From an uncultured Bacteroidota bacterium (GTDB taxonomy: Bacteria; Bacteroidota; Bacteroidia; AKYH767-A; JABDAW01): 44,647 nt of DNA. Below the pieces are notes generated by a model that was not told where the DNA came from, did no database searches, and was given only the letters and a program-made list of their open reading frames with translations. A program made the translations under genes and the position numbers. Of the stretch, positions 3,513-44,300 are shown in pieces. The stretch lies in contig CAIMUP010000069.1 in the NCBI GenBank assembly GCA_903844645.1, positions 1 to 44,647 on the forward strand. Direction: 5' to 3'. Numbering within the stretch: the first letter of the stretch is position 1; every line of letters begins with the position of its first letter.

Positions 3513-4376
3513 ATGAGACAGCTAAAAATTATTAAACAAGTGACCAACCGCGAGACGGTTTCGCTTGACAAGTATCTTTCTGAAATAGCAAAAGTAGAAC
3601 TCCTAAACCTGGATCAGGAAGTTGAGTTGGTAAAGAAAATAAGGAACGGCGACATGAAGGCTTTGGAACGCCTTACTAAGGCTAACCTGCGATTCGTGGT
3701 GTCTGTTTCGAAGCAATATCAGAACCAAGGATTGACATTGGGAGATTTAATTAATGAAGGTAACCTTGGCTTGATTAAGGCGGCTCAAAAGTTCGATGAG
3801 ACGCGAGGATTTAAGTTTATTTCCTACGCCGTTTGGTGGATTCGGCAATCTATTTTGCAGGCTCTTGCAGAAAATTCTCGAATCGTACGATTGCCCTTGA
3901 ATCGCATCGGAGCTATCAGTAAAATCCGTAAGGTTTACGATAAATTAGAGCAAGAATTTGAGCGCGAGCCTTCGGCAAATGAACTTTCTGATGTATTAAA
4001 TATTGATGAGAGCGATATTCGCGATGCCTTGCGGATGTCGAAGCGCCACCTTTCGATGGATGCTCCGGTAACGGAAGATGAGGAAAGCAATATGCTTGAT
4101 TTTTTGGAAAGTAACGACCCGAATACTCCCGATTTGGAGTTATTAAAAGAGTCATTATGCAAGGATTTAGCCCGAGCATTGGCGACATTGTCGAAGAAAG
4201 AATCGGAAATAATTCACGATTTCTACGGATTAAATGCGCAGATACCATTAACAATGGAAGAACTTGCGATAAAATACGACCTGTCCCAAGAGCGGATTCG
4301 TCAGATCAAAGAGAAGGGATTGAGGCGGCTGAAACACACCTCGCGCAGCAATGTGCTGAAGGCTTACTTAGGATAA
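3513..4376 (+). CDS. rpoD: Primary RNA polymerase sigma factor (RpoD/SigA, Bacteroidota type)
   Basis: 287 residues, without the acidic region 1.1 of proteobacterial sigma-70, as is usual for the Bacteroidota housekeeping sigma. Region 1.2 contains SLDKYLSEIAKVELL. Region 2 includes GLTLGDLINEGNLGL and then FISYAVWWIRQSI, the -10 reading and melting element. Region 3 covers KVYDKLEQEFEREPSANEL. Region 4 ends with the helix-turn-helix LSQERIRQIKEKGLRRLK. This is the factor expected to read the TAnnTTTG boxes listed here. It is monocistronic and followed by a strong hairpin terminator. Confidence 0.95.
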   Translation: MRQLKIIKQVTNRETVSLDKYLSEIAKVELLNLDQEVELVKKIRNGDMKALERLTKANLRFVVSVSKQYQNQGLTLGDLINEGNLGLIKAAQKFDETRGFKFISYAVWWIRQSILQALAENSRIVRLPLNRIGAISKIRKVYDKLEQEFEREPSANELSDVLNIDESDIRDALRMSKRHLSMDAPVTEDEESNMLDFLESNDPNTPDLELLKESLCKDLARALATLSKKESEIIHDFYGLNAQIPLTMEELAIKYDLSQERIRQIKEKGLRRLKHTSRSNVLKAYLG

Positions 4377-4708: not shown

Positions 4709-4813
4709 CCAAAACGTAAACACCTTTTACCAAAACGTAAACACCTTTTACCAAAACTTAAACAAGCTTTACCAAAACTTAAACATGTTTTTCCAAAACT
4801 TAAACAGTGTTTG
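4709..4813. repeat. 21-bp tandem array, 5 units
   Basis: Five contiguous 21-bp units begin at 4709, 4730, 4751, 4772 and 4793. Each starts CCAAAAC(G/T)TAAACA and ends in a variable T-rich tail. The tail tends to complement the AAACA of its own unit (AAACATGTTT in unit 4, AAACAGTGTTT in unit 5), so each unit carries a small dyad. The array lies between the convergent rpoD and DUF5723 genes. Units do not match any other array in the window, but the period does. Confidence 0.95.
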
Positions 4814-4876: not shown

Positions 4877-6232
4877 TTAAAAGAAAGTGGCGGTGAAGCT
4901 AATCGTCAAATCGGTGCCTGTGGCGAGGTGGCTGAACATTAATCCTCCTAAATTATCGGAGCCGATGCTGATTCTTTTTCGCGACCAATAAAGGCTGGCA
5001 TAAGGACCGAAAACGAAGCGATTGTATCCGCCATAAGCGGTGGACATGCCGAGGTTCAGGGTGTGCCCGAAGCTGTGGGTGTACCCTCCGGCAATGAAGG
5101 GATTGACCGTGGTTCCGGGCAAATTGCTGAAGCCCTGGATGTAGGTCAGGAAGACGGAATTCATGGCGTAATCGCCCTTTTTGGTGTCTGTAATTATCTG
5201 TTGAAATTCGGCAAGGAGGTTGATTTTTGGGCTTACCGGTATCTTGTAAGAACCGCCTGGGGTTATTTGTGGAATGAAAATAGTGGTCAGCTGGTTGGGG
5301 TCAATTTTGATGTCTCCAAAGAGGTTGCTGACGATGGCTCCGGTGTAGTTTTCGAGGGAATCTTTGTGGTAAGAAACGATGTCTTTGTCGAATGTTACGA
5401 AGTTCAAATCGGTCAAACTGGCGGCAAAAGTGAGGTTTGAATTTGGATAATATGAGAGGCTTAAATCGAACCCGTAGCCCTTGCCAGCGGGGTTGAAGAG
5501 GTCGAAATTTTCATTGGCTCTCGAGGTTTTAATGTCATAATTGAAGCCGACCGCGACGGTGTCGCCAAGGGAAGTGGTGCGGATGGAAAAATCTTTATTG
5601 GTCATGTACATGGAGCCAATTCCTTGAATATATTTTGCGCGGATGCCTACTCGCAGTTCCTTTTCGTGCTCATCGCCAAAGATGGTGAAGGCACTCCCAA
5701 ACGCGTATTCTCGGATATAATTTACGTTGATCGCAAAGGGATCGAGCTGCACCGTTTGCCCTCGGAACTGGTAATTTCCGTGCCACATTAGCTTCGCCAT
5801 ATTTTGCGAAAGCACCATGTTTGAAGCCACTTTGTCATCCACCGAAAGCGTGAAGACGACATGCTTTTCATCCTTCGGGGTGTTGTATTGATATGCCAAA
5901 GCGAAGACCTGCATGTCCTGCCCGAAGCCAAGAATATTGTCTCCCTTGAGCTTGCTGATAATGGTATTTACTTGCGCATTGTTGATTTCTTTATTTTTGT
6001 TGAGGTCTTGAATGGAGCCATAGTCGAACGTATTATTTCCGAGCCATACATAGTAATTCATACCTGCCTGAATATGATGTTTGCCGAGGTCAAGCTCGGA
6101 AGTAAACATCCGATTATTGATGTCGTGCTGGCTGTTATAAAAGGTTCCGATGTTGTATTGTCCAAAGGAATTGGCTGCTAAAAAGAGCAAGCCAAGGGCG
6201 AGAAGCAGGGTATTAAGATTTATATTTTTCAT
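4877..6232 (-). CDS. DUF5723 family predicted outer-membrane protein
   Basis: 451 residues. A Sec signal peptide covers residues 1 to about 24 (LLLALGLLFLAANSFGQ), then a mature start resembling other DUF5723 proteins (NSQHDINNRMFTSELDLGKHH). The rest alternates polar and hydrophobic beta-strand segments and ends LTISFTATFF; a terminal aromatic residue is typical of beta-barrels handed to the BAM complex. The function of DUF5723 is not known. The preceding lipoprotein gene stops 17 bases upstream, so the two probably form an operon and may act together at the outer membrane (inference). Confidence 0.75.
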   Translation of the reverse strand: MKNINLNTLLLALGLLFLAANSFGQYNIGTFYNSQHDINNRMFTSELDLGKHHIQAGMNYYVWLGNNTFDYGSIQDLNKNKEINNAQVNTIISKLKGDNILGFGQDMQVFALAYQYNTPKDEKHVVFTLSVDDKVASNMVLSQNMAKLMWHGNYQFRGQTVQLDPFAINVNYIREYAFGSAFTIFGDEHEKELRVGIRAKYIQGIGSMYMTNKDFSIRTTSLGDTVAVGFNYDIKTSRANENFDLFNPAGKGYGFDLSLSYYPNSNLTFAASLTDLNFVTFDKDIVSYHKDSLENYTGAIVSNLFGDIKIDPNQLTTIFIPQITPGGSYKIPVSPKINLLAEFQQIITDTKKGDYAMNSVFLTYIQGFSNLPGTTVNPFIAGGYTHSFGHTLNLGMSTAYGGYNRFVFGPYASLYWSRKRISIGSDNLGGLMFSHLATGTDLTISFTATFF

Positions 6233-6249
6233 GATGTGTGTTGTTTCGA

Positions 6250-7275
6250 TTAATTTAATTTGACTTGCAGATGTCCTACTAATAACAGCTTGATGGCATC
6301 GTTTTTCGATAAGGTAATACCCTGGGCCCCATTCTTAACTCTAAGGTTGGAATATATGAATCTTGAATCAACCAAGTGCTTCAACTTAATATCCGTGAAC
6401 GTAAAAACGAGGGAAGCTAAACTGGGTTGTGTTGAACTTGTTCGCTGTGGAATAAAAGTTCCACCATCGAAAAGGGAATCTATAATGGTGTGATCAGCCC
6501 TTAAAAAATAAAACTGAAGATTCATATTAAACGGCAACCCATTGGTAATAAAAACAGTGATTGTGTCTTCGCCCAACATTTGAGTTTTTACCTTATATCC
6601 TTGCAAGCTAAACTCTGATGTGTCCCGTAATTCTAAAGTATCAGGAAGAATAGTGCAACCTGAAAGAGAAGCATTTTCAAGGAAAGCGGACACTGTAAAA
6701 CTTTCATTACCGGTAATATGTACTGCCCCATTACTGGCGGCTGTAGAGAGATTTGTAACGGTTAATAAGAGATCGTTTTCGATTGTTTTCCCTGACAGAT
6801 CAACACCTGTCGTATATTGATAATGCCCACCGTTTGCAGGGACATCAGCATTAAGCTGCACATGCATCAGGACAACGCCGCTTATAGAATCAGTCAACGT
6901 AATCCATGCCCCAGTCTTTAATGTTATAGGCATATTATTATCTAAAGTAAAATACAACATCCCGGTTTCTAATGTCAAAGCCTTGAAAGCATTAAACAAT
7001 TGAAAATGGAACGCAGGCAAGGTATCTATCGGACCTAATGCCGGAATCGGAAAGGTTCCCGTGGCAGTATCAATTTTACTGAATGTAATTGATGCAGCAC
7101 CTTTTAAAGTTTTCATCTGCACAATTTTGTTCCCGTTGGCGGAGGTGTTTACGAGGGGTCCTAAGAGATCCATATCCCAATTCGGGACGTTTACTGCATC
7201 AGGAGCGAATTTACAGGATGCCATTACCATCAGTAGCAGGCATGGTATCAGGAGTTTTTGTTTCATCTTTTTCAT
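6250..7275 (-). CDS. Predicted surface or outer-membrane lipoprotein, unrecognised family
   Basis: 341 residues. The signal peptide ends in a lipobox, MVMASC, with the lipidated Cys at about residue 21. The mature part begins KFAPDAVNVPNWDMDLLGPL and looks all-beta, rich in Thr, Leu and Asn. I do not recognise the domain. Two ATGs three codons apart (7275 and 7266) could both serve. A TAATTTCG box lies upstream at 7303-7310. It sits directly upstream of the DUF5723 barrel gene; lipoprotein plus barrel pairs are common in Bacteroidota envelope operons, but the role here is unknown. Confidence 0.8.
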   Translation of the reverse strand: MKKMKQKLLIPCLLLMVMASCKFAPDAVNVPNWDMDLLGPLVNTSANGNKIVQMKTLKGAASITFSKIDTATGTFPIPALGPIDTLPAFHFQLFNAFKALTLETGMLYFTLDNNMPITLKTGAWITLTDSISGVVLMHVQLNADVPANGGHYQYTTGVDLSGKTIENDLLLTVTNLSTAASNGAVHITGNESFTVSAFLENASLSGCTILPDTLELRDTSEFSLQGYKVKTQMLGEDTITVFITNGLPFNMNLQFYFLRADHTIIDSLFDGGTFIPQRTSSTQPSLASLVFTFTDIKLKHLVDSRFIYSNLRVKNGAQGITLSKNDAIKLLLVGHLQVKLN

Positions 7276-7302
7276 GGTGAATTATCTTTATTTTATTTAG
7301 GG

Positions 7303-7310
7303 CGAAATTA
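7303..7310 (-). promoter_or_regulatory. Possible -7 box TAATTTCG for the lipoprotein-DUF5723 pair
   Basis: One mismatch to TAnnTTTG, 28 bases before the ATG at 7275. The same variant occurs ahead of lpdA (40903-40910). Confidence 0.4.
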
Positions 7311-7359
7311 CAAAATTTTATTAAAGTCCTTTTGTACGAGGATTCGCCTTGAAAGTTTA

Positions 7360-8187
7360 TCAACGATATATAATCTCAAGCCGTGGGTTCACAATATTGA
7401 TATTTGTTGGAAGGGCGGTATAGATATCAATATACAAAGTCTCTAACTTATGAAGCTTTGAAATGCTCGAAGGGATGGAGAGAAGGATACCGCTATGAGC
7501 CAAGTCAAGTTCCACCATAACAGTTAATTGCCCAATCTCATCAGGTAATTCGGTTAATTGATTCTTGCCGACATAAAGAAACCGAATATGTTTCCAACTG
7601 CCTATTTCTTTAGGTAAAGCAGTTAGTTGGTTTTCTTCGAGATGAACCAACTCGAGGTAACCTAACTTCCCTATTTCTGGCGGTAAATATTTAATATAGT
7701 TATACATCATATCCAATTCGCGGAGTTCAAGCAAATCGCCCAGTTCTATTGGCAGGCTATCTATCCTATTATATTTAAACGAAAGCAGCCGAAGGCTTTG
7801 CAACTTCCCTATTTCGTGGGGCAACCGCTTTAGTTTATTGGCACTTAATACTAACTCTTCGAGGTTCTCCAGATTACCGATTTCCTTAGGGAGAGAATCC
7901 AATTTGTTTTCAAATATATTCAATCGTTTCAGGTGTTTTAGCATCCCGATTTCGGGGGGAAGGGTCTTGAGGTTATTATTATTCAGATCCAATTCAACGA
8001 GATTATGCAACTTCCCAATATCCGCAGACAACTCGCTAAGATGCTGATGCCCGAGCTTTAGTTTATACACATTCATAGAATCCATCACGGCTTCGTGGAG
8101 GTTATTAAAGGTGCGCCGAAAGCTCTGTGCATGGGCAAAGTGCATTAAAAGTAGCATCATTATAAGAAACAGTTTCTTGGAATTCAT
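7360..8187 (-). CDS. Secreted leucine-rich repeat protein
   Basis: 275 residues. A signal peptide (LFLIMMLLLMHFAHAQS) is followed by about eight or nine tandem leucine-rich repeats of 23 residues with the pattern LPxEIGxLxxLxxLxLxxNxL (for example LPKEIGNLENLEELVLSANKL). The C terminus drifts from the consensus (SIPSSISKLHKLETLYID). Such LRR proteins form curved solenoids that bind partners; no catalytic domain is present. It could be a periplasmic or surface adhesion or recognition module. It lies between gatB and the lipoprotein gene without obvious coupling to either. Confidence 0.9.
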   Translation of the reverse strand: MNSKKLFLIMMLLLMHFAHAQSFRRTFNNLHEAVMDSMNVYKLKLGHQHLSELSADIGKLHNLVELDLNNNNLKTLPPEIGMLKHLKRLNIFENKLDSLPKEIGNLENLEELVLSANKLKRLPHEIGKLQSLRLLSFKYNRIDSLPIELGDLLELRELDMMYNYIKYLPPEIGKLGYLELVHLEENQLTALPKEIGSWKHIRFLYVGKNQLTELPDEIGQLTVMVELDLAHSGILLSIPSSISKLHKLETLYIDIYTALPTNINIVNPRLEIIYR

Positions 8188-8245
8188 CTTCTTATTTATC
8201 GAATTCGGAATACTTGTTTTCTTATTAAATAGATGTTAGAACCCG

Positions 8246-9703
8246 CTAATATGCCAAGGCTTCGATTAACAATTTATTGGCTACTTTTGGGTCTGCTTTG
8301 CCTTTGCTTAGCTTCATCACTTCGCCCATAAACAGCCCGATTAAGCCTATTTTGCCTGCTTTATATTCCAACACTTTATCAGGATATTTCGATAGGGCTT
8401 GTTCAATGAATTCTTTCAGTGCGTGGTCATCGCTTTCTTGTATTAAATTCATCGTTTCGGCAATCGCCAGTGGCGTTTTATCTGATGAAAGAACCATCTC
8501 GGGAAACACCTTTTGCACTGCCACCGAATGGCTTATTTTTCCTTCTTCTATTAGAACGATCAGCGATGCCATGCGGGATGCGGAGACGGGGAAATCAACC
8601 ATCTCGATAGCCATTTCATTAAGATAAGATTTGATAGGTCCCATCACCATATTGGCGGCAGATTTATAGTTCGTAGTATGTTTAATTAATTCATTAAAAT
8701 AATCCGAAACCTCTTTCGCATCGGTCAAGACGGTGGCATCATAAACCGATAAATGATATTCAGAAACATACTGCTTAAACAAGGCATCGGGCAGGGTTGG
8801 GAGCTTCGCCCTTACGGTATTTATGTAGGCTTCTTTGATAATTATCGGTGGCAGATCAGGCTCTGGAAAGTACCGATAATCATTCGCCATTTCTTTGCTG
8901 CGCATTACGAAAGTGGTTCCGGCAACGGCATCGAAGCTGCGGGTATCTTGGCTGATAGAGCCGCCTGATTCGAGTTCGTCTATCTGTCGTTTTATCTCGT
9001 ATTCGATAGCCCTTTGCACGTTCCGCATAGAGTTCATATTCTTTACCTCACATCGTTTGCCGAGTTTGGTATCGCCCTTTAATCGTACTGAAACATTGGC
9101 ATCGCAGCGCATAGATCCTTCTTCTAAATTGCCATCGCAGATGTCAAGATACTTCACCAATTTCCGCATTTCGGTAACGTATTGGAACGCCTCTTCTCCG
9201 CTCCTTAATTCTGGCTCTGAAACGACCTCCAACAAAGGAACTCCGGCTCTATTCAAATCTATTAAAGAGGCAAACGGGTCTACATCGTGAATGGATTTGC
9301 CTGCATCTTCTTCCATGTGGATACGTGTTAAAGAAACCTGCTTCTCTGCGCCGTTTTTATCTTTAATCGTAAGATAGCCTCCGGTACAAATCGGGGTGGT
9401 ATCTTGCGTTATTTGATAGCCTTTGGGGAGGTCGGCATAGAAGTAATTCTTTCGGGCATATCCATTGACTTCGCGGATGTCGCAATGCAATGCCAAGCCC
9501 AGCAGTACGGCGTTTTCGACTACTTGCTTGTTCACCATCGGCAGCGTTCCGGGATGCCCTAAAGAGATGGGCGAAACATGAGAATTGGGCATGCCGCCGT
9601 AGCTTGCCGAATCCGATGAATAGGCTTTGCTTTTGGTATTTAATTGGATATGTATTTCCAATCCGATTACCGGTTCGTATTTATCGTAAATGGTTTCATT
9701 CAT
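8246..9703 (-). CDS. gatB: Asp/Glu-tRNA amidotransferase subunit B
   Basis: 485 residues, full length. GatB is the tRNA-binding and kinase-like subunit of GatCAB, which converts Glu-tRNA-Gln (or Asp-tRNA-Asn) to the amide. Hallmarks are YEPVIGLEIHIQL near the N terminus, the EDAGKS segment, DLNRAGVPLLEVVSEPE, GSMRCDANVSVR, CEVKNMNSMRNV and NDYRYFPEPDLPP, then the helical YqeY-like tail ending KVANKLLIEALAY. gatA and gatC are not adjacent. The start codon lies only 7 bases from a perfect -7 box, so the mRNA should be nearly leaderless. Confidence 0.97.
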   Translation of the reverse strand: MNETIYDKYEPVIGLEIHIQLNTKSKAYSSDSASYGGMPNSHVSPISLGHPGTLPMVNKQVVENAVLLGLALHCDIREVNGYARKNYFYADLPKGYQITQDTTPICTGGYLTIKDKNGAEKQVSLTRIHMEEDAGKSIHDVDPFASLIDLNRAGVPLLEVVSEPELRSGEEAFQYVTEMRKLVKYLDICDGNLEEGSMRCDANVSVRLKGDTKLGKRCEVKNMNSMRNVQRAIEYEIKRQIDELESGGSISQDTRSFDAVAGTTFVMRSKEMANDYRYFPEPDLPPIIIKEAYINTVRAKLPTLPDALFKQYVSEYHLSVYDATVLTDAKEVSDYFNELIKHTTNYKSAANMVMGPIKSYLNEMAIEMVDFPVSASRMASLIVLIEEGKISHSVAVQKVFPEMVLSSDKTPLAIAETMNLIQESDDHALKEFIEQALSKYPDKVLEYKAGKIGLIGLFMGEVMKLSKGKADPKVANKLLIEALAY

Positions 9704-9710
9704 AGCGGCG

Positions 9711-9718
9711 CAAAGATA
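9711..9718 (-). promoter_or_regulatory. -7 promoter box TATCTTTG for gatB, very close to the start codon
   Basis: Minus strand TATCTTTG at 9718-9711 with the ATG at 9703-9701. Transcription starting about 5-8 bases after the box would leave a leader of only a few bases. Confidence 0.65.
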
Positions 9719-9782
9719 AGAATTCGATTACTATTATTTATCACTAACAAGATTTTTTTTGGTATCGCGAACAATGCGTTGC

Positions 9783-10055
9783 GTATCTTGAGGAATGAAC
9801 TTGGTATCTTGAGGAATGAACTTGGAATTTCAAGTCTTCTACTTGGAATTTCAAGTCCTCAACTTGGTATTTTCAGTCCTCAACTTGGAATCTGAAGGGA
9901 AAAGTTTGGAACATTAAGCCATGAAACACGTGTTTTATGCCTTAATGTTCCAAACTTTTCCCTTGGAATTCCAAATTTAATCCTCGAAATTCCAAATTTA
10001 ATCCTTGAAATACCAAGTTCATTACATAAGATACCAAATGCAGAAGCCGAGATTC
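9783..10055. repeat. 21-bp array that inverts about its centre, 13 units
   Basis: Units begin every 21 bases from 9783 to 10035. The seven left units start G(A/T)AT or GAAC and most end ACTTG or GTTTG. The six right units start CAA and most end in ATTC or ATAC, the reverse-complement pattern. The switch falls exactly on a unit boundary (9929/9930). The innermost unit pair matches as inverse complement at 19 of 21 bases and the next at 18 of 21; outer pairs are more diverged. It occupies the gap between the O-antigen ligase stop and the gatB promoter. Confidence 0.93.
9897..9962. repeat. 66-bp near-perfect palindrome at the array centre
   Basis: Arms of 33 bases pair with only two mismatches (9919/9940 and 9923/9936). 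The centre is CACGTG with no spacer. The outer ends are GGGAAAAGTTTGG and CCAAACTTTTCCC. As RNA it would form a long hairpin with no T run, so it is not a standard terminator. As DNA it could extrude a cruciform. Confidence 0.97.
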
Positions 10056-10117
10056 CGAATATCGAAAAGCGGCATCGTAACGCGTGTTTTCTATGTGATA
10101 AAATTAGGGGAGAAAAT

Positions 10118-11545
10118 CTATGCCGTTTCCTCTTTCTTAGCATGATAAACATCCATCGCGACAAGCATCGCAACGAAGCCCCAGAACGGAACGGAGGCTT
10201 TATCGGTATCCAAGAAATCGTTCATAATACCATGCACAAAATAAGTTATCAGCCCCAATAAAAGCCCTAAGGTAAGGAGCCGAATCTCCTTATCTTTCGC
10301 CCGAATATATAATCGCGAAGCACGATAAATAATGGCAAGAACCATAAGGATAAAAGTGAGAGCACCAATCAAACCAGAATCGGCAAGGGGCTGCAAATAT
10401 TCGCTGTGGGCATTGCCCTTGTCGCCTGCATTCGTGCTGATAATCGTCTTCTCCTTAGAATGTTGGAAAGGGGCATATTTAAAGGAATAAGTACCCGGTC
10501 CCCAGCCCAATATCGGCTTCACTTTGAACATCCGAATAGCGCAATTCCACCGGTTAATCCGTTCTACATTCGAGGCATCAGTAGAGATATTCGAGATAGA
10601 CTGAACGTGCTTCGTAATATCCGTTGATGAATCCTGATGATTGCGCTCGAGTTTCATCATAATCTGGGTTTGGAAGATAAAAAACAATACAATCGCCATC
10701 GCCACCCCACCAACGATTAGGGAGGTCTTCACTCGGAATAAAAAAATCAGATAAACAGCAACCGCCACAGCTAATCCGATCCATGCCGCACGGGTATAAG
10801 AAAGATAAAGAGCTACGGCAAACAAACAAGTGATGAAAAAAGCGAAGATGCGCGTAATAGCGGTGTATTTCGCATTAAATATAAACCCGATAAAGACAGG
10901 AACAAACAGACAAATAACAGCTGCATAAGCGGTATGATCGTTATAAAAAGGGCTCATCACCCATATCGCAGAACGCTCCCCAAAACCAAAGGTGGAATGC
11001 CGGTAAATAGTGTAAAAAATAACGAGAATAAGGGAGCTGGTATAAATCCAAATGAACTTCTTAATATTGTGATAATTGAAGAACAATTGCGTCGCCAAAA
11101 AGTAGAATGAAGTAACAAACCAGAGCCTCGAAAGGAAGAACTTAAACGACACCACGGGCAAGGTACTACTGATACAGGTAATGAACATCCAAGCGAGGTT
11201 GAGAATCAGGAAAATAGTTACCGGATGATTAATAATTCGTTTGTCGAAGGTCCTTTCATAGATCAATTTCGCGAAGAAAATTATCATCAAACCAAACATA
11301 AGCGGCTCGACCGGCAGGCTTAGTCCTAAGTTGAACTCGCTATTCTTTAAGTTAATAGCAAGCGGTGTCATGAAGACCACAATGAACATTAAAATATCTA
11401 TCGAAAAGATGGCTAAAACAACAATTAATAAAGCCATCGGCAGTAACGGAAACCAGTAGAATTCATTAGCCAGGAAGATTACATTCAGCACGATGAAAAG
11501 CGCACTTATTCCGTACAGCCAACGAAGTTTTATTTGATGAATCAT
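10118..11545 (-). CDS. O-antigen ligase/polymerase family membrane protein (Wzy_C)
   Basis: 475 residues with about 10-12 hydrophobic spans. The large periplasmic loop carries the Wzy/WaaL signature region: GWGPGTYSFKYAPF, then NAHSEYLQPLADSGLIGA, with the conserved H-S-E. Members either ligate undecaprenyl-linked O-antigen to lipid A core or polymerise repeat units; sequence alone does not decide which. It starts 21 bases after the stop of the second Wzz-like gene and is probably the last gene of a three-gene transcript promoted at 13680-13687. No glycosyltransferase or flippase lies beside it. Confidence 0.88.
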   Translation of the reverse strand: MIHQIKLRWLYGISALFIVLNVIFLANEFYWFPLLPMALLIVVLAIFSIDILMFIVVFMTPLAINLKNSEFNLGLSLPVEPLMFGLMIIFFAKLIYERTFDKRIINHPVTIFLILNLAWMFITCISSTLPVVSFKFFLSRLWFVTSFYFLATQLFFNYHNIKKFIWIYTSSLILVIFYTIYRHSTFGFGERSAIWVMSPFYNDHTAYAAVICLFVPVFIGFIFNAKYTAITRIFAFFITCLFAVALYLSYTRAAWIGLAVAVAVYLIFLFRVKTSLIVGGVAMAIVLFFIFQTQIMMKLERNHQDSSTDITKHVQSISNISTDASNVERINRWNCAIRMFKVKPILGWGPGTYSFKYAPFQHSKEKTIISTNAGDKGNAHSEYLQPLADSGLIGALTFILMVLAIIYRASRLYIRAKDKEIRLLTLGLLLGLITYFVHGIMNDFLDTDKASVPFWGFVAMLVAMDVYHAKKEETA

Positions 11546-11566
11546 ACCAGCGCGTTGTTTAAGGAA

Positions 11567-12517
11567 TTAAGAATGCTTAGCCCTATCCATATACCCAATA
11601 ATAAAATATGCTACGAGCAAGGAAGAGAGTGTAGAAATAACCACAATCAGCCACCTTACGGGGTATGTTTTCTTATCTGCCGGATAAGGCTTTGTAATAA
11701 TATTAGAATAGGTCAGTATTTTCTCTACATCCTTGATAGCATTCTCATATTGATTCTTTATATCGTTATAACTGCCCCGTACTCGCCACAAATGTTCATT
11801 GATAGAAACAAAATCGCCACCATATTCTTCCAAGTTCTTAATCATTTGCCGAGCCTCGGTCAGGGCTTGCGAATTAGTCGTCTTCGACAGCATCTCGTAA
11901 TACTCTTTCGTGAGTTCCTTCGATTGCAAATCGTAACTGATAATCCCGTATTTCGTCCTGATATTCTTAACGAGTGCTTCCATCGAATCCATTTCTGTTT
12001 TCTTCCTATCCAATTGCCCTTTGATAATCTTCACCAGTTCTTCCGACTTCTCGCGTTGAAGGCTCTTCGCCTTTTTATTCATCAAATCAATAATAGTATC
12101 CACCATCGCAGACGCAATGAACGGATTTTTATCCAACACACTCACCTCCACAGATTGAAATTCATTCCGCGAAAAACTAATATTATCATTATAAACCTCT
12201 ATCAAGTGCGACAACGAATATTTATCCTTCGTCGAATCAATATCGTAATGCTTCATCAGGCTGAAAATACGAAACATATCCCTCCGAATATCATCCGACT
12301 GAAGCACCTGTATCATCTGTTCCGTAGGGCTTTCACCCGCATAAGGAATAATATTCGACGGATACAGAATAGCAAACGATTTATACTTCGATTCTATAAA
12401 TGTCGGTCCCGAAAATATCAAGGAAACCCCCATCGCCAAAAATCCTATCACCAAAAAATGCACCCTCCACCGATTCAACAACTGAAGTATATTCGTAGCG
12501 TTCATATTATTTTCCAT
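11567..12517 (-). CDS. Wzz-type polysaccharide chain-length protein, second paralogue
   Basis: 316 residues. An N-terminal membrane span (about residues 16-36, HFLVIGFLAMGVSLIF) and a C-terminal span (WLIVVISTLSSLLVAYFIIGY, about 288-308) bracket a helical, coiled-coil-rich periplasmic domain, the Wzz topology. PY motifs (KPYPADKKTYPVRW) precede the second span. There is no tyrosine kinase domain. It is clearly related to the 372-residue protein encoded just upstream; both share the IRRDMF or IRDRVI, LM(K/R)HY and SFSR(N/T)EF segments. It likely controls polymer length for the neighbouring Wzy_C protein. Confidence 0.85.
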   Translation of the reverse strand: MENNMNATNILQLLNRWRVHFLVIGFLAMGVSLIFSGPTFIESKYKSFAILYPSNIIPYAGESPTEQMIQVLQSDDIRRDMFRIFSLMKHYDIDSTKDKYSLSHLIEVYNDNISFSRNEFQSVEVSVLDKNPFIASAMVDTIIDLMNKKAKSLQREKSEELVKIIKGQLDRKKTEMDSMEALVKNIRTKYGIISYDLQSKELTKEYYEMLSKTTNSQALTEARQMIKNLEEYGGDFVSINEHLWRVRGSYNDIKNQYENAIKDVEKILTYSNIITKPYPADKKTYPVRWLIVVISTLSSLLVAYFIIGYMDRAKHS

Positions 12518-12535
12518 AAAGTAGTAAATAGTAGG

Positions 12536-13654
12536 TTAAGATCGTTTAAACTGTGCATAACTCTCCATCCCGATCAACACCAACACACTTAAAAACAATG
12601 CCGACAAAGTAGAAAACAAAACAATCAGCCACCGGATAGGATAACTCTTCTTTTCCGCCTTAACCGCTTTATTCACCACAAACTTATTCGACAAGGTCTC
12701 ATCCAAATCTATCTTCGCCTTCGCAAATTTCTCTCGCAAATCAGCCAATGCTTTCCGTTGCCAACCCATTTCCTGCGCCATCGAAACATTCGCCCCGCCA
12801 TACTTCGCAAAATTATCCAATGCCGCCTTCATACTCTTCATTTTCGCTTCCGCTCCCTTAATCCGAGCCTTCGTAGCGATCACCAACGTATCTTCCTCCT
12901 TCCGATATTTCTGCAAAATCGGCAAACCCGCCGTTTCATTCTCATAAACCGACGACGCCTTCGTATATTCCTCATTATACATCGCCGATTGAGACTCATA
13001 ATCAAAAATCCCTTTCGACCGCAGATATTGCATCGTATCCTCAATCTCCTGCATCCGTTTCCGCTTATCCTGATATGCCGCCTCCACAATATTATATGCC
13101 TGCCAAGCCCGTTCATGCTGAATCTTCGTCTTCATCGAATCCACCAAATCAGAAATAGTATTCGCCATATTCGCCGCCAATTCCGGATTCTCATCCAAAA
13201 CCTCAATCTGAACAGACATAAACTCCGTCCTGCTAAACGAAACATTCGATTCAAACTCCTTCCGAACCCGAGTTTGAGGATAATCCGACGAAGCATCAAT
13301 CCGATAATGCCTCATCAAATCAAATTTCTCAATCACCCGATCCCGAATTTCATCCGAATTCAAAATCTGAAGCAACTGCTCCGCCTGCTCCTCCTTCCCA
13401 AATTTCAAAACATCCTGCTCCTCCTCTACAGCCCCCAACAACGCCTTCGAAATAGAATTCGTACTCGAAGGAAAAAGAATAACAGCCGATTTAAACTTCG
13501 GTTTAATAAAAGCCGAACTCGAGAAAATCGTCGCGCCCAACGCCGCCACCGCAGCAATAATTAATAAATGCCATTTCCATTTAATAATAAAAATAAACAA
13601 GTTCGAGGCATCCATATAATTTGCCCTCCGCGGAGTGTTTTGTAAATCGTTCAT
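12536..13654 (-). CDS. Wzz-type polysaccharide chain-length protein, first paralogue
   Basis: 372 residues from the ATG at 13654; a TTG one codon earlier is less likely to be the start. Membrane spans near residues 26-46 (WHLLIIAAVAALGATIF) and at the C terminus (WLIVLFSTLSALFLSVLVL) flank a long helical periplasmic region with coiled-coil-like stretches (VEAAYQDKRKRMQEIEDTM). It has about 50 more residues than its neighbour, partly an insert after the first span (EEEQDVLKFGKEEQAEQL). Two tandem Wzz-like proteins may form a mixed oligomer or set two modal lengths (inference). Its plus strand is extremely C-rich and G-poor. Confidence 0.85.
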   Translation of the reverse strand: MNDLQNTPRRANYMDASNLFIFIIKWKWHLLIIAAVAALGATIFSSSAFIKPKFKSAVILFPSSTNSISKALLGAVEEEQDVLKFGKEEQAEQLLQILNSDEIRDRVIEKFDLMRHYRIDASSDYPQTRVRKEFESNVSFSRTEFMSVQIEVLDENPELAANMANTISDLVDSMKTKIQHERAWQAYNIVEAAYQDKRKRMQEIEDTMQYLRSKGIFDYESQSAMYNEEYTKASSVYENETAGLPILQKYRKEEDTLVIATKARIKGAEAKMKSMKAALDNFAKYGGANVSMAQEMGWQRKALADLREKFAKAKIDLDETLSNKFVVNKAVKAEKKSYPIRWLIVLFSTLSALFLSVLVLIGMESYAQFKRS

Positions 13655-13679
13655 CAAAGTAATATTTATTTAAGGAGCG

Positions 13680-13687
13680 CAAAAATA
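13680..13687 (-). promoter_or_regulatory. -7 promoter box TATTTTTG for the wzz-wzz-ligase unit
   Basis: Minus strand TATTTTTG, 26 bases before the ATG at 13654. Confidence 0.55.
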
Positions 13688-13729
13688 GAAAATAATTGGA
13701 ATAAATCCCCCACAACCCGCAAACACGCC

Positions 13730-13769
13730 GGTCAGGATTTGGTTTCCGCTAGTCAGGATTTGTAATCCC
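13730..13769 (+). repeat. Two REP-like GTCAGGATTTG motifs
   Basis: GGTCAGGATTTGG at 13730 is followed by TTTCC, and AGTCAGGATTTGTAATCCC lies at 13751-13769. Both are degenerate copies of a hairpin motif whose best copy is at 33590-33612. Confidence 0.6.
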
Positions 13770-13834
13770 ACCCTCTCCGTGAATCTCCTTTTTTCTCTGT
13801 GAAATTCTTTTTAATCAGAGAATCTGTGGCTATA

Positions 13835-13852
13835 AACCTCTTTTGGGAGGTT
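13835..13852 (+). other. Small hairpin before the array leader
   Basis: AACCTC (13835-13840) pairs with GAGGTT (13847-13852) around a TTTTGG loop, directly before the conserved leader. The second leader copy lacks this hairpin. Confidence 0.4.
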
Positions 13853-13853
13853 A

Positions 13854-13887
13854 AAAATTTTAACTAAAAACCCACATTCTCCAAAAT
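13854..13887 (+). repeat. Array leader, copy 1
   Basis: AAAATTTTAACTAAAAA, then CCCACAT, then CT and AAAAT, ending where the first 21-bp unit begins. The same block, with one extra A and small differences, precedes the unrelated array at 36407. Finding it in front of two arrays with different units suggests it belongs to the element rather than to either neighbouring gene. Confidence 0.75.
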
Positions 13888-14053
13888 GGGCGATAAACTC
13901 GACCACATGGGCGATAAACTAACACGCATGGGCGATAATCTAACACACATGGGCGATAAACTCGAACACATGGGCAATAAACTCGACCACATGGGCGATA
14001 AACTCGACCACATGGACGATAAACTCGACCACATGGGCAATAATCTCTCCGCC
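13886..14053 (+). repeat. 21-bp tandem array, 8 units
   Basis: Units start at 13886 and every 21 bases to 14033, each beginning ATGG(G/A)C(G/A)ATAA and usually ending CTCGACCAC. Changes cluster at a few sites (GCGAT or GCAAT; CTCGACCAC or CTAACACGC). One frame encodes heptads such as MGDKLDH, but the frame has no gene-like start or end. It lies in the divergent gap between the wzz unit and accC. Confidence 0.95.
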
Positions 14054-14072
14054 GGTCAGGATTTGCAATCCC
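14054..14072 (+). repeat. REP-like motif GGTCAGGATTTGCAATCCC
   Basis: It follows the last unit of the array at 13886 directly. GGATT pairs with AATCC around a short loop. Confidence 0.55.
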
Positions 14073-14094
14073 CTATATGTAATTCATAATTCAA

Positions 14095-14312
14095 TTATGG
14101 CGCGTCCCCGGCTGCCTCCCACCAAAGTCCCCACCAAATGGCAGCCACGGTCGGGCTGTTCGGGGGTACCGTACCTGCCTGCCACCAGAAAAGTCCCCAC
14201 CAAAAGGCAGGCACCAAGCCCCTACCATCCCTCGCGCAGCAGACGACCCAGTCCATAAACCACACAAGCATCCTGACAAACAATCGCCCCTTCGCGATTT
14301 CCTGTCAGGTTG
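14095..14312 (+). repeat. Structured dispersed repeat, copy 1
   Basis: About 218 bases beginning TTATGGCGCGTCCCCGGC and ending TTTCCTGTCAGGTTG. It matches 35989-36256 in the same orientation, with many blocks identical (GGCAGCCACGGTC, CGGGGGTACCG, CAAGCCCCTACCATCCCTCG, CCCCTTCGCGATTTCCTGT). It contains an internal near-duplication of CCCCACCAAA(A/T)GGCAG. It is G+C-rich compared with its surroundings. The minus strand is open in two frames (GLVPAFWWGLF and similar), but this appears to be a by-product. It is not recognisable as an IS or a known RNA family. Confidence 0.85.
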
Positions 14313-14313
14313 C
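14268..14313 (+). ncRNA. Hairpin at the 3' end of the dispersed repeat, copy 1
   Basis: The outer stem GCATCCTGACA pairs with TGTCAGGTTGC (one T/T mismatch). A symmetric 3x3 internal loop follows, then an inner stem AATCGC/GCGATT and a CCCTTC loop. The copy at 36208 keeps the same architecture with a partly different outer stem. It is structured as DNA or RNA; transcription is not shown. Confidence 0.5.
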
Positions 14314-14323
14314 ATTCAATATT

Positions 14324-14806
14324 CCAAGTTACGACCAATGAAATCCAAGTTACGACGAATGAAATTGAAGTTACGACGAATGAAATTGAAGTTACGACGA
14401 ATGAAATCCAAGTTACGACCAATGAAATTCAAGTTACGACGAACATATTCCAAGTTACGACGAACATATTCCAAGTTACGACGAACATATTCCAAGTTAC
14501 GACCAACATATTCCAAGTTACGACCAACATATTCCAAGTTACGACCAACATATTCTAAGTTACGACCAACATATTCTAAGTTACGACCAACATATTCCAA
14601 GTTACGACGAACATATTCTAAGTTACGACCAACATATTCCAAGTTACGACGAACATATTCTAAGTTACGACCAACATATTCCAAAACCAAACGACAATAT
14701 ATTCAAGCCAAACGACAATATATACAAGCCAAACGACAATATCCCAAAACCCAACGAACATATTTCAAAACCCAACGAAGGTATTTAATAAAACGTAACG
14801 AACTTT
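14324..14806 (+). repeat. 21-bp tandem array, 23 units, two unit families in one register
   Basis: Seventeen units (14324-14680) share AAGTTACGAC(C/G)AA. The first five mostly continue TGAAAT and the later ones CATATT. From 14681 the units change to AAACGACAATAT or CCCAACGAACATATT forms but keep the 21-base step to 14785, with a sixth degenerate unit ending at 14806. The array ends 3 bases before the accC -7 box, so accC's upstream promoter region is built from array DNA. Confidence 0.95.
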
Positions 14807-14809
14807 TTG

Positions 14810-14817
14810 CATCTTTG
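14810..14817 (+). promoter_or_regulatory. -7 box CATCTTTG for accC
   Basis: One mismatch to TAnnTTTG, 23 bases before the ATG at 14840. Because the alternative ATG at 14807 lies at this box, 14840 is the preferred start. Confidence 0.55.
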
Positions 14818-14839
14818 CCTCCCTCCAATAAAATCAAAG

Positions 14840-16333
14840 ATGAATAAAATACTAATAGCCAACCGCGGCGAAATAGCCCTCCGCATCATGCGATCTGCCA
14901 AAGAAATGGGCATCAAAACAGTCGCCGTATTCTCCGAAGCCGACCGGAATTCCCCCCATGTCCGCTATGCCGACGAAGCAATCTGCATCGGACCATCCCC
15001 CTCCAACCAAAGTTATTTGGTAATGGAAAAAATAATTAATGCCGCCAAAACCACCCATGCCGACGGCATCCATCCCGGATACGGATTCCTGTCCGAAAAC
15101 GCAATATTCGCCAGGAAAGTCAAAGAAGCAGGCATCATCTTCATCGGTCCCTCCCCCGAATCAATGGAAATGATGGGCGATAAACTCTCCGCCAAAGCCG
15201 CAGCCAAAAAATATAATATCCCCCTCGTTCCTGGCACCGATTATGCCATTCAAGATATTGACAAAGCAAAGATAGTAGCACAAGAAGTCGGCTTCCCCAT
15301 CCTCATCAAAGCCTCTGCCGGAGGTGGCGGCAAAGGAATGAGAGTAGTAAATACGATAGAAGACTTTGAAGAACAAATGAAACTTGCCGCCTCCGAAGCC
15401 CTTTCCTCATTCGGCGATGGATCCGTGTTCATCGAAAGATATGTCGCCGCCCCTCGCCACATAGAGATTCAAGTTCTTGGAGATACCCACGGCAATATCG
15501 TTTATCTTTTCGAAAGAGAATGCTCTATCCAGCGCAGGCATCAAAAAGTAGTGGAAGAAGCACCCTCCTCCTGCCTCACTCCCGAACTACGGAAGGCAAT
15601 GGGAGAATGCGCCGTCATGGTTGCCAAAGCATGCAACTACATCGGGGCAGGCACCGTCGAGTTTTTGATGGATGAAAAGATGAACTTCTACTTCCTCGAA
15701 ATGAATACCCGCCTTCAGGTAGAACATCCGGTAACCGAATTAATAACCGGAAAAGACCTCGTGAAGGAACAGATCAAGGTGGCTCGCGGCGAGAAATTAT
15801 CCTTTACACAAGAAGACCTCAAGATAATTGGTCACGCCATAGAGATTCGTGTTTGCGCCGAAGACCCAACCAATAATTTCCTCCCCGATACCGGCACTTT
15901 AACCACCTACCAAATTCCGAAAGGAGCAGGTGTAAGAGTGGATGACGGCTTCGAGGAAGGCATGGAAATACCTATCTTCTACGACAATATGATTGCAAAA
16001 TTAATTACCTACGGACACAACCGCGAAGAAGCCATCCAAAGAATGATTCGAGCCATAGACGAATATAAGATTACCGGCATAGAAACCACACTACCCTTCT
16101 GCAAGTTTGTAATGATGCACGAGAATTTCAGGAATGGTAACTTCGATACGAACTTCATCAAGAATTATTTCCAACCAGATGATCTTCTCTCTTCCAATGC
16201 CGATGAGGAAATTGTGGCTGCCCTGCTCGGTGCCAAGTTGATGAATGAAAATAATCAGAGCCATCATTCCGTTCTCGAACCTGCTATTGAAAATGACAGC
16301 AGATGGAAGAAAAATCGGGGAACGGAATCCTAA
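14840..16333 (+). CDS. accC: Biotin carboxylase subunit of acetyl-CoA (acyl-CoA) carboxylase
   Basis: 497 residues from MNKILIANRGEIALRI. It carboxylates biotin on its carrier protein using ATP and bicarbonate, the first step of fatty-acid synthesis. The ATP-grasp core shows Lys157, the glycine-rich loop GGGGKG (161-166), ERECSIQRRHQK, and the catalytic segment EMNTRLQVEHP with Glu287, Asn289, Arg291 and Glu295. It has about 45 residues beyond the E. coli enzyme at the C terminus (from about FQPDDLLSS on). accB is not adjacent, so it may instead serve a propionyl- or other acyl-CoA carboxylase. Codons at the 5' end are markedly C-rich, fading toward the 3' end. Confidence 0.93.
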   Translation: MNKILIANRGEIALRIMRSAKEMGIKTVAVFSEADRNSPHVRYADEAICIGPSPSNQSYLVMEKIINAAKTTHADGIHPGYGFLSENAIFARKVKEAGIIFIGPSPESMEMMGDKLSAKAAAKKYNIPLVPGTDYAIQDIDKAKIVAQEVGFPILIKASAGGGGKGMRVVNTIEDFEEQMKLAASEALSSFGDGSVFIERYVAAPRHIEIQVLGDTHGNIVYLFERECSIQRRHQKVVEEAPSSCLTPELRKAMGECAVMVAKACNYIGAGTVEFLMDEKMNFYFLEMNTRLQVEHPVTELITGKDLVKEQIKVARGEKLSFTQEDLKIIGHAIEIRVCAEDPTNNFLPDTGTLTTYQIPKGAGVRVDDGFEEGMEIPIFYDNMIAKLITYGHNREEAIQRMIRAIDEYKITGIETTLPFCKFVMMHENFRNGNFDTNFIKNYFQPDDLLSSNADEEIVAALLGAKLMNENNQSHHSVLEPAIENDSRWKKNRGTES

Positions 16334-19151: not shown

Positions 19152-20087
19152 TTATACGATGATCTTCACCAACCGAATAATGATGGTGGAAATACTTCCT
19201 TCGGTAGTGGTTATTAGCGTTGATTTATCGGTATAATCTATGCGAGATGAATTAATGATCAATGCTCCAAAAGCCTCGGTATTAATGGTCGCTTCGCCAT
19301 TCGCATTCCCCGTGTCTTGTGCTCCGGTCTCATCCAATTCTGCCAGCACTCCTCCCAATGTCAATCCGGTAACATCATCTACATACCGGATATTTATTAC
19401 GGACAGATTGCCCACCGAAATCCATACCAAGCCCCAATTTCCGCCACGAATATGTTGTTGTTCTTTGGTCAGGGTATCATATTTTCCTTCCACTTCATTC
19501 GATATAGTTAGCAGAATCGGTGCGGCAGTAGCGGCAAGGGTTCTCAAGGTGGAATCTGCTGTGTCGTGATTATGGATGGCAGTGGTACGAAGGATGATGG
19601 ATGCTTTCAATGTTGCCAATGCAGCTACCACTCTCGACACCCGTGCGTAGGCGGGGCGACCGGCAAGCACTCGAGCAGCCTCGCCATCAATAATTACTTT
19701 TGCTACCGCCATCGCTTTCGCCTCCGATTTCACGTCTGGCAAAATAGGGCGACCAGGGTTCATCCCATAGAAGGTGAAATCCGAGGAAATATAAATTCCT
19801 TCCTTCACATCGCCTTTGAAATTCCGCAAACAATTCCGAATAACGAGCGACAGGAATTCGTATTTAATTTTGGTATCCGACACTGCTGCCGACTGTAGTC
19901 CGCCGGTAGAAAACCATGAAATCCGATCGTTATGGAATGCCGGTGAAATAGTATTAAACAAAGTAATAGTACCCCCATTTAAGGTAATATCCCCAACGAG
20001 CGGATGTGCTATCCGTTCCACTATTGCATCAATCATGATGTCTTTCTGGCGGTCTGACCGCGCTCTTCTGATTACAAAATTAGCCAT
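19152..20087 (-). CDS. Unrecognised 311-residue protein
   Basis: Starts MANFVIRRARSDRQKDIMIDAIVERIAHP. I do not recognise it. The middle is helical and Ala-rich (ARVSRVVAALATLKASIILR, a tryptophan pair in GGNWGLVWISVG). The C-terminal third reads like a beta-sandwich with LTLGGVLAELDE and NANGEATINTEAFGALII, loosely resembling carboxypeptidase-regulatory-like (transthyretin-type) repeats. There is no signal peptide, lipobox or membrane span. Codon use looks native and continuous, so it is very likely expressed. It is convergent with DUF4153, and the 42-bp array lies upstream. Confidence 0.8.
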   Translation of the reverse strand: MANFVIRRARSDRQKDIMIDAIVERIAHPLVGDITLNGGTITLFNTISPAFHNDRISWFSTGGLQSAAVSDTKIKYEFLSLVIRNCLRNFKGDVKEGIYISSDFTFYGMNPGRPILPDVKSEAKAMAVAKVIIDGEAARVLAGRPAYARVSRVVAALATLKASIILRTTAIHNHDTADSTLRTLAATAAPILLTISNEVEGKYDTLTKEQQHIRGGNWGLVWISVGNLSVINIRYVDDVTGLTLGGVLAELDETGAQDTGNANGEATINTEAFGALIINSSRIDYTDKSTLITTTEGSISTIIIRLVKIIV

Positions 20088-20172
20088 TTTCTCTTATTTT
20101 AATTGTTATATTTAATTTTTATTAATTGTAGCATGTTGTAATACCTTGCAAAACTAAATCGCTTAGACCCTT

Positions 20173-20592
20173 GCAATACTTTGTGGAGGTATAAATTTTT
20201 TCGCCGATACCGTTGCAATACCTTGCGAGGGTATAAGTTTTTTCGCCGATACCATTGCAATACCTTGCGGGGGTATAAGTTTTTTCGCGGATAGCGTTGC
20301 AATACCTTGCAGGGGTATAAATTTTTTCGCGGATACCGTTGTATTGTTTTACAAGGGTGTAATTTATTTCGCTCATATCGATATTCAACCTTGTTTCGGT
20401 AGAATTTTTACTCCTTATATATAGGGTCGAACAAGACCATGCTTTATTTAATGTACTATAAGTAGTGGTCGAACAAGACCGTGTTTTATTTAATCTATTA
20501 TAAGGAGTGGTCGAACAAGACCATGTTTTATTTAATGTACTAAAACAGAAGTTCGTTCCTGCATCAGGCAAACAATTTTCGGGGACTACTTT
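20173..20592. repeat. 42-bp (2 x 21) tandem array with two unit families in one register
   Basis: Ten steps of 42 bases from 20173. The first four units contain GCAATAC(C/T)TTG, a GGTATAA element and TTTTTTCGC; ATACC/GGTAT form a dyad in most. Degenerate units follow at 20341 and 20383. From 20425 three units start GGTCGAACAAGACC, itself a GGTC/GACC dyad, followed by TTTTATTTAAT or CTTTATTTAAT. A decayed unit starts at 20551. The change of family occurs without loss of the 42-base step. A 159-codon minus ORF crosses the array (20122-20601), but its repeat content makes coding doubtful. Confidence 0.93.
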
Positions 20593-20618
20593 GCGATTCA
20601 TGGCGCAAAATAAATCTT

Positions 20619-20906
20619 TTAATGTATCCCACTACCACCCTTAGGGATACATACCCACAAAGGAAATTTGATTTTGTACCTGGCGCGCCTCACCTGAAAA
20701 GCATTTCTTTTAACTCCCCATTTGGCTTTAAACATCTGCCAGGTAAACGAATTGCCGATGTCCGTTTCCATATCCTCTTCATCGAAAATCTTTTGTACGG
20801 CAGCGAAAAAAGGCATTCCCGTACCTACTTCCTTGAGGAATCCCTCAATAGATTTCCTATCGAAGGTCTTAATAAAAATCTGCACCATTTCGGTATGTTC
20901 ACTCAT
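20619..20906 (-). CDS. Unrecognised 95-residue protein
   Basis: Starts MSEHTEMVQIFIKTFDRKSIEGFLKEVGTG. It has an acidic, helical first half (AVQKIFDEEDMETDIG) and a basic second half (KAKWGVKRNAFQVRRARYKIKF). There is no signal peptide or membrane span. I know no family for it. It stands alone between the 42-bp array and a further isolated repeat unit at 20971, so it is bracketed by related repeat DNA. The composition looks coding, but a short ORF in a repeat neighbourhood carries some risk. Confidence 0.6.
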   Translation of the reverse strand: MSEHTEMVQIFIKTFDRKSIEGFLKEVGTGMPFFAAVQKIFDEEDMETDIGNSFTWQMFKAKWGVKRNAFQVRRARYKIKFPLWVCIPKGGSGIH

Positions 20907-20970: not shown

Positions 20971-21009
20971 GGTCGAACAAGCTTGTGGTTTATGGTATTA
21001 AATAGTACC
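20971..21009. repeat. Isolated copy of the GGTCGAACAAG repeat unit
   Basis: Resembles the second-family units of the 42-bp array (GGTCGAACAAG, then a TTTAT-type core and TATTAAATAGTACC). Its start is exactly 420 bases, ten 42-bp steps, from the unit at 20551, on the far side of the 95-residue gene. Confidence 0.65.
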
Positions 21010-30364: not shown

Positions 30365-30637
30365 AGCGTCAGGTGACCTCATCGGGTGTTTGAGAGACCT
30401 CATCGAGTGTTTGAGAGACCTCATCAAGTGTTTGAGAGACCTCATCGAGTGTTTGAGAGACCTCATCGACACTTTGAGAGACCTCATCGAGTGTTTGAGA
30501 GACCTCATCGAGTGTTTGAGAGACCTCATCGGGTGTTTGAGAGACCTCATCAAGTGTTTGAGAGACCTCATCGAGTGTTTGAGAGACCTCATCGAGTGTT
30601 TGAGAGACCTCATCGAGTGTTTGAGAGACCTCATCGA
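30365..30637. repeat. 21-bp tandem array, 13 units
   Basis: The first, partial unit is at 30365; twelve near-identical units run from 30386 to 30637. The invariant core is TTTGAGAGACCTCATC and almost all variation is in one triplet after it (GAG, AAG, GGG or GAC). TGAG and CTCA form a dyad around AGAC. Both strands stay open across the array, giving false ORFs of over 100 codons. It sits in the divergent gap between the LolA-like gene and the epimerase gene. Confidence 0.97.
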
Positions 30638-36422: not shown

Positions 36423-36595
36423 ATAGCATCACAGTGAGTTTGTATAGCAAATAATCCAATTTGTACCCCACCAAATCACATTCATACCCCACCAAATCAC
36501 ATTCATACCCCACCAAATCCAATTCATAGAGCAAATAATCCAGTTTGTACCCCACCGAATCGCATTCACACCCCACCGAAATACTCTTATAGAAA
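36407..36595 (+). repeat. 21-bp tandem array, 9 units, two alternating unit types
   Basis: Units begin every 21 bases from 36407. One type starts AAATAATCCA(A/G)TTTGTA and the other ACC(A/G)AATC(A/G)CATTCA; they alternate in blocks, joined by CCCC or AGC ends. The order suggests duplication of a multi-unit block. It ends 32 bases before the NrnA -7 box. Confidence 0.93.
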
Positions 36596-39525: not shown

Positions 39526-39588
39526 CCGCTTTCAGAAGGTTTGATATGGTTTATTCAGAAACGAAAAATCAAAAGAGGTCAAAAAATC

Positions 39589-39840
39589 TTTAAAGATTCG
39601 TTTCATATCTTTAAAGATCCGTTTCATATCTTTAAAGATTCGTTTCATATCTTTAAAGATCCGTTTCACATCTTTAAAGATTCGTTTCATATCTTTAAAG
39701 ATTCGTTTCACATCTTTAAAGATTCGTTTCACATCTTTAATGATTCGTTTCATATCTTTAAAGATTCGTTTCACATCTTTAAAGATTCGTTTCACATCTT
39801 TAAAGATCCGTAACGAACTTTTAAAGATTTTTCGGTATCT
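39589..39840. repeat. 21-bp tandem array, 12 units, each with a 12-bp palindrome
   Basis: Ten close units from 39589 to 39798 repeat TTTAAAGAT(T/C)CGTTTCA(T/C)ATC; two decayed units follow in register to 39840. Each junction creates ATCTTTAAAGAT, a perfect 12-bp palindrome spaced every 21 bases; one unit has a T instead of an A in it (AATGAT). Variation is confined mainly to two C/T sites. It lies between two plus-strand genes. Confidence 0.97.
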
Positions 39841-44253: not shown

Positions 44254-44300
44254 TCATTCCCCAAAACACGACCCCTCGAAATGCCGATTTTGGCTGTTGT

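Follow-up and report, generated by a model that had tools for sequence, protein, structure and literature searches.

Several classes of repetitive DNA invite comparison with the arrays described here. REP and BIME elements, which are associated with RAYT (Y1) transposases, are short palindromes dispersed through intergenic DNA and sometimes clustered, while eukaryotic satellite DNA with higher-order repeats consists of monomer groups that are amplified in register, homogenised and turned over. The intergenic heptamer tandem repeats of prokaryotes, described in the SPADE survey (PMC6344855) and for the TAACTGA repeats (PMC4679880), have a period typical of the lineage and a function that is unexplained. 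Minisatellites or VNTRs, including the intergenic tandem repeats of Planctomycetota (PMC9426551), expand and contract, and slippage is their usual explanation.

The arrays of the uncultured Bacteroidota bacterium analyzed here (assembly GCA_903844645.1) share with the heptamer repeats their intergenic location, tandem arrangement and lineage-typical period, and a sister genus even has 7-bp arrays. They differ from them in having a quantum of 21 bp, units that change at nearly every locus and cells that are often palindromic, and in occupying about half of the longer gaps. In contrast to REP/BIME elements, they have no common palindromic consensus, are spaced strictly head to tail at 21 bp, and are accompanied by almost no Y1 transposase. 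As detected by Tandem Repeats Finder (TRF), they consist of head-to-tail tandem units of about 10-100 bp and in that respect resemble minisatellites; however, ordinary minisatellites have no period common to different loci, whereas here 92% of strong arrays have periods that are multiples of 21. Unlike eukaryotic satellites, they are bacterial, form hundreds of small intergenic arrays, are built on a monomer of two helical turns and have no sequence common to the loci. Whole cells are repeated without unique spacers, so the arrays do not qualify as CRISPR. A search of the open-access literature yielded no account of bacterial intergenic arrays with a 21-bp period.

Two repeat families in one intergenic gap

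The window, i.e. the whole stretch of DNA analyzed (44,647 nucleotides of contig CAIMUP010000069.1), includes an array-bearing intergenic gap at 20088-20618, flanked by minus-strand ORFs 19152-20087 (311 aa) and 20619-20906 (95 aa). According to the preliminary description, two unrelated families of units in this gap keep one 42-bp register and are bridged by two degenerate units. Autocorrelation, the check proposed there, confirms the register. The top self-identity lags in the gap are 42, 84, 126, 168, 210 and 252, with peaks continuing in steps of 42 up to 294; identity at lag 42 reaches 0.609, the base being 0.272 (a difference of about 14 SD), lags 41 and 43 lie near the base, and lag 21 is at chance. 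Sliced every 42 bp, the gap yields ten in-phase cells from 20130 to 20549. The family A motif starts at 20173, 20215, 20257 and 20299 and the family B motif at 20425, 20467 and 20509; every difference is a multiple of 42, that from A to B being 252 = 6 x 42. The two families are indeed unrelated: in register they are identical at 14 of 42 positions, where shuffling expects 11.

Family A comprises four 42-bp cells on the plus strand (20172-20339; 38-41/42 to the consensus). Every cell has a pair of different palindromes, GCAATACCTTGC and GGTATAAATTTTTTCGCGGATACC, whose centres are 21 bp apart modulo 42. Family B comprises three cells on the same strand (20424-20549; 37-39/42 to the consensus) with palindromes GGTCGAACAAGACC and TTATTTAATGTACTATAA, the last cell carrying TGTTTTATTTAATGTACTAAAACA with a 7-bp stem. 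The two bridging cells (20340-20423, plus strand) are no artefact but decayed family A in register, matching the A consensus at 27/42 (20340) and at 21/42 (20382; shuffle p = 0.0005), with the best cyclic offset being 0 of 42 for each. The cell that follows B (20550-20591, plus strand) is weakly A-like in the same register (19/42, best at offset 0 of 42, p = 0.0045). Thus, with bridging and trailing cells both A-like at offset 0, B sits within an A grid that is decaying. A degenerate A-like cell (20130-20171, plus strand) lies upstream of the clear ones and matches the A consensus at 17/42 in register (p = 0.019), a weak assignment because another offset scores better (21/42).

The preliminary description had considered that amplification of one unit could hardly produce such an arrangement. 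This holds insofar as unrelated units do share a register, both here and elsewhere: at L010 16734-16985 and at the related L128 10857-11108, for example, a block of 8-9 cells belonging to one family is sandwiched in 21-bp register between cells of another. The puzzle itself has largely disappeared: since the bridging cells are decayed A, it is different cells of one inherited grid that have been amplified.

The "start" of a unit is arbitrary for unrelated sequences, and the register between A and B therefore needs an independent phase reference. Palindrome centres provide one. Modulo 21, both A centres lie at 18.5 and those of B at 19.5, with the last (7-bp-stem) B palindrome at 18.5. The centres thus fall on a common grid, and each 42-bp family pairs two different 21-bp cells, both having a dyad of their own. 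In a whole-genome search, family A was present at only one other locus, on contig C54, where A is again followed by B at a whole multiple of 42. In L018, which covers this locus, A lies at 9569, 9611, 9653 and 9695 and B at 9863, 9989 and 10031 (9863 - 9569 = 294 = 7 x 42), with about 126 bp between A and B that hold no clear repeat. From our reading of the ORFs, the neighbours of this second locus are presumably an rsmI-like methyltransferase and a CpsB-like phosphatase.

An isolated B-like copy lies beyond the 95-aa ORF on the plus strand (20971-20995), 462 = 11 x 42 bp past the last B cell, an agreement that could arise by chance (1 in 42); its distance from the first A cell is exactly 19 x 42 bp. 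The minus-strand ORF that spans the array (20122-20601, 159 aa) has no Pfam match and is probably spurious. The 311-aa protein has no Pfam match either; it belongs to a paralogous family with 3, 6 and 5 matches in this genome (G000) and its congeners G001 and G002, respectively, and some members of the family adjoin arrays.

The 21-bp quantum in the genome and its relatives

Beyond what the preliminary description had noticed, the quantum is 21 bp rather than 42, it is genome-wide, and its cells have symmetry centres. We surveyed 780 kb, about 20% of the genome (3.8 Mb, 98.7% complete), with TRF and defined strong arrays by a score of 100 or more. The period is divisible by 21 in 161 of 175 strong arrays (92%) and is 1 bp off a multiple of 21 in 7. 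A lag scan of the same 780 kb finds repeated 20-mers at lags of 21, 42, 63, 84, 105 and 126 in 5,139-15,644 windows each (14,972 at 21; 15,644 at 42; 9,238 at 63; 9,314 at 84), compared with at most 389 at any non-multiple; multiples of 3 other than multiples of 21 are nearly absent. There is no 7- or 14-bp sub-period, array identity at lags 7, 14, 28 and 35 being not above that at other lags. Phased A-tracts or a 10.5-bp sub-period were also considered and discarded, as lags 10 and 11 are not clearly raised. Unit sequences differ from one array to most others. Array density is 27.6 per 100 kb, which extrapolates to about 1,000 arrays in 3.8 Mb, and arrays cover about 29 kb as against 95 kb of intergenic DNA. 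By simple ORF-based gene calls, about half of the gaps of at least 100 bp hold arrays, and tandem, convergent and divergent gaps do so alike.

With all detected arrays masked, intergenic DNA still has its highest peak at lag 21 (8.2 SD in array-bearing gaps, 4.2 SD in gaps without arrays), followed by 42 and 63. We read it as decayed lattice. Isolated repeats at long lags were few, and only 5 of 38 fell at multiples of 21. A phase test of palindromic sub-arrays placed 7 of 7 at offset 0, all from only two regions.

In the window, further 21-bp arrays lie at 4709-4806 (the same family occurs at other loci in G001 and G002 with 73-86% identity), 9783-10034, 13886-14778, 30375-30637 (12.5 copies), 36453-36582 (6.1 copies), 39586-39811 (10.8 copies) and 44290-44647, where the arrays reach the contig end. 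The array at 9783-10034 is one large inverted repeat centred near 9929, and another array of this kind is found at L131 15540. The region 13886-14778 consists of three arrays with changing units (13886-14047, 14319-14684 and 14676-14778). For the gene next to the array at 30375-30637, the G002 orthologue is flanked on the corresponding side by a 42-bp array of unrelated sequence. The genomes of the genus are drafts in which contigs often end inside arrays, as observed in L008, L010, L012, L013, L015, L016, L022, L023 and L025; arrays thus break assemblies, and their copy numbers may be underestimates.

Other elements accompany the arrays. A dispersed hairpin, CCTGACAGGCAATCGCCCCTTCGCGATTTCCTGTCAGG, REP- or terminator-like, is frequently found beside them (window 14259-14318; L015 10430-10480; L010 ~3760-3830; L138 3230-3380). 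A conserved flank of about 130 bp comes before arrays with five different units (L020 3950-4100, L140 13990-14220, L017 12250-12400, L016 8270-8430, L138 16300-16480) and contains TAATTTTG, which fits the Bacteroidetes -7 promoter motif; within the genome, regions sharing a conserved flank carry arrays of different units. In addition, some leaders contain an inverted copy of the array unit, and between paralogous arrays this copy and the unit change together (L134 6731-7170 and 9825-10320; L024 13100-13240; L132 8659-8880). The conserved leader TTTTTCGCTGGA was tried as a genome-wide signal of arrays and dropped, since it occurs only twice.

The quantum is shared by two congeners: 29 of 31 strong arrays in G001 and 47 of 71 in G002 are at multiples of 21. 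Raw lag counts of G001 were excluded because they are inflated at every lag, a run of N being the probable cause. Most of the relatives sampled beyond the genus lack the pattern; these samples are small. G003, from another genus of the same family, has 7-bp arrays of varied sequence and no multiple of 21 among four strong arrays, and order mates have 3 of 10. GatB led to three named Bacteroidota MAGs. In one of them, isolate palsa_967 (G063), the two strong arrays both have periods divisible by 21; the arrays of the remaining two have periods of 7, 14 or 8n bp. Some 1 Mb of sequence surrounding GatB in other bacteria, nearly all of them Bacteroidota, contains 11 strong arrays, none of them at a multiple of 21. 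Another related Bacteroidota MAG, G061, has long 14-bp arrays of 14 and 43 copies (L270 9545-12504), which suggests that quanta differ between lineages and are multiples of 7.

The preliminary description had also proposed comparing the same locus in relatives, to see whether unit families swap while the spacing stays fixed. At eight distinct orthologous gene flanks that carry arrays in both the genome under study and a congener, all periods are multiples of 21 and the units are unrelated in seven; in the eighth they are related at 72%, in reverse orientation. Units are thereby seen to swap at fixed spacing on the same side of the same gene, though not necessarily at the same site, as similarity usually stops within about 80 bp past the gene and gene order is poorly conserved. 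Of 13 conserved neighbour pairs, in which the gap is orthologous on both sides, two have an array in the genome under study and none in G002.

Symmetry of the cells and rarity of indels

Palindromy exceeds expectation across the 161 arrays, whose best-axis complementarity is 0.557 compared with 0.496 +- 0.003 after column permutation, and stems of 21-bp units measure 4.08 compared with 3.51 +- 0.08 in dinucleotide shuffles. About 60% of arrays stay below 0.7 best-axis complementarity, so that a dyad per cell is a tendency and not a rule. Among 24 period-42 arrays whose halves are less than 30% identical, the distance between the two best centres is exactly 21.0 bp in 9 (0.37 expected, p = 5e-11) and within 1 bp of 21 in 12 (2.2 expected). 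Distinct types of double change are compensatory in 44 of 67 cases in stems, compared with 1205 of 3606 (33%) off axis, a test somewhat biased by the choice of the stem axis for maximal complementarity. Cells are kin by duplication, and the counts in several of these tests are therefore non-independent. An inverted unit copy is present in the flank of 30 of 137 arrays (about a fifth), compared with 1 of 137 in the control.

Template switching between the arms of quasipalindromes is documented and can yield compensatory changes without selection (PMC7202029, PMC8794818). Such switching likely contributes here. Read in the orientation of transcription, stem mismatches comprise 35 GT and 41 AC; this lack of strand preference indicates that the symmetry belongs to DNA and not to RNA.

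Indels are rare in arrays. In dispersed copies we counted 3 per 937 mismatches in arrays and 10 per 564 in flanks (Fisher p = 0.007; 13 events in total); in an earlier alignment with cheap gap costs the depletion in arrays was only two-fold. Taken together with the scarcity of periods that miss a multiple of 21 by 1 bp, this favours a constraint of two helical turns at the DNA level.

Possible origins of the lattice

We consider it probable that A and B arose one after the other, through in-register amplification of different cells within a single old lattice of 21-bp dyads, in which a DNA-level constraint acts on spacing and symmetry and leaves the sequence free. The gap would be occupied by this one lattice, whose cells measure 21 bp, or two turns of B-DNA, and in many cases contain a dyad. 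Cells would diverge through substitution, and groups of one, two or more would occasionally be re-amplified in tandem, as whole cells only, so that a new family such as B could be born inside or beside an older one such as A with the register kept. The same re-amplification may be at work in roughly every second one of the longer gaps between genes in this genus. Descent with in-register amplification is the simplest account of the A/B register; that length and dyad outlive sequence requires more. The constraint might come from a DNA-binding protein, dimeric and tolerant of sequence, that occupies one helix face every two turns, and an amplification or template-switch process with a 21-bp step would be nearly as likely.

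One alternative dispenses with both function and ruler. A single ancestral 21-bp dyad satellite would have spread through the genome and diverged, slippage and unequal exchange keeping periods at multiples of 21 and quasipalindrome template switching keeping the arms complementary. We regard this as unlikely, though it agrees with several observations: 110 of 157 arrays, taken with their flanks, resemble an array elsewhere within the 20% of the genome (a few being neighbours with overlapping flanks), arrays are independent of orientation, and the inverted copies at their edges look like template switching. However, only 7 of 175 periods differ by 1 bp from a multiple of 21, even though the sequences themselves no longer resemble one another, and array indels are depleted relative to flanks. 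Palindromes and compensatory changes could alternatively mean that the arrays are transcribed as chains of RNA hairpins, serving as stability, termination or processing signals. This is very improbable, given the absence of a G-U preference on the transcribed strand, with arrays homogeneous in this respect (chi2 32.8, df 39), the equal frequency of arrays in divergent, convergent and tandem gaps, and the failure of an Rfam search to match any known RNA family in the window. An apparent heterogeneity of mismatches between arrays (chi2 140, df 34) was due to duplicated cells in the count and disappears when each distinct type is counted once.

It is just as improbable that a mobile or enzyme-templated element (RAYT/REP, reverse transcriptase or DGR) writes the arrays, an idea suggested by the dispersal of copies and by arrays that share a conserved flank and not the unit. 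No PF00078 (reverse transcriptase) match exists in the 98.7% complete genome, and no target-site duplication or element ends were found. The genome has one partial Y1 transposase (PF01797, profile positions 5-84 of 121) and its congeners have mostly broken ones, whereas intact Y1 transposases occur in lineages without the lattice. We give still less credence to an assembly artefact or to repeats encoding heptapeptides, notions prompted by the many contigs that end inside arrays, the fragmentation of the drafts and the divisibility of 21 by 3. The cells are diverged, higher-order periods of 42 to 126 bp exist, remnants of the lattice persist in masked DNA, and the pattern recurs in several separate genomes while sister lineages are without it. 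As for coding, the excess of open frames disappears against dinucleotide shuffles (4.41 compared with 4.29 +- 0.07), and lags at other multiples of 3 are, as noted above, nearly absent.

Successive in-register amplification on an old lattice, constrained in spacing and symmetry, remains the reading we prefer for A and B. More tentatively, its extension to the whole genome is possible: the genus would keep a sequence-independent lattice of intergenic DNA with a dyad per two helical turns, which a putative architectural protein, itself symmetric, would read or an enzyme stepping by 21 bp would make. Spacing and symmetry would then be heritable, while the sequence could turn over freely.

For tandem repeats in bacteria, the usual explanation is slippage of a particular sequence, given separately for each locus; here length is conserved and sequence is not. 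As the length is kept across hundreds of loci and in several species, there appears to be something that maintains 21 bp and promotes two-fold symmetry. The favoured periods of bacterial intergenic repeats, those of the heptamers for example, become testable by comparison of sister lineages with 7-, 14- and 21-bp arrays. The cause, once found, would reveal either a new type of nucleoid organisation or a replication or recombination process with a fixed step.
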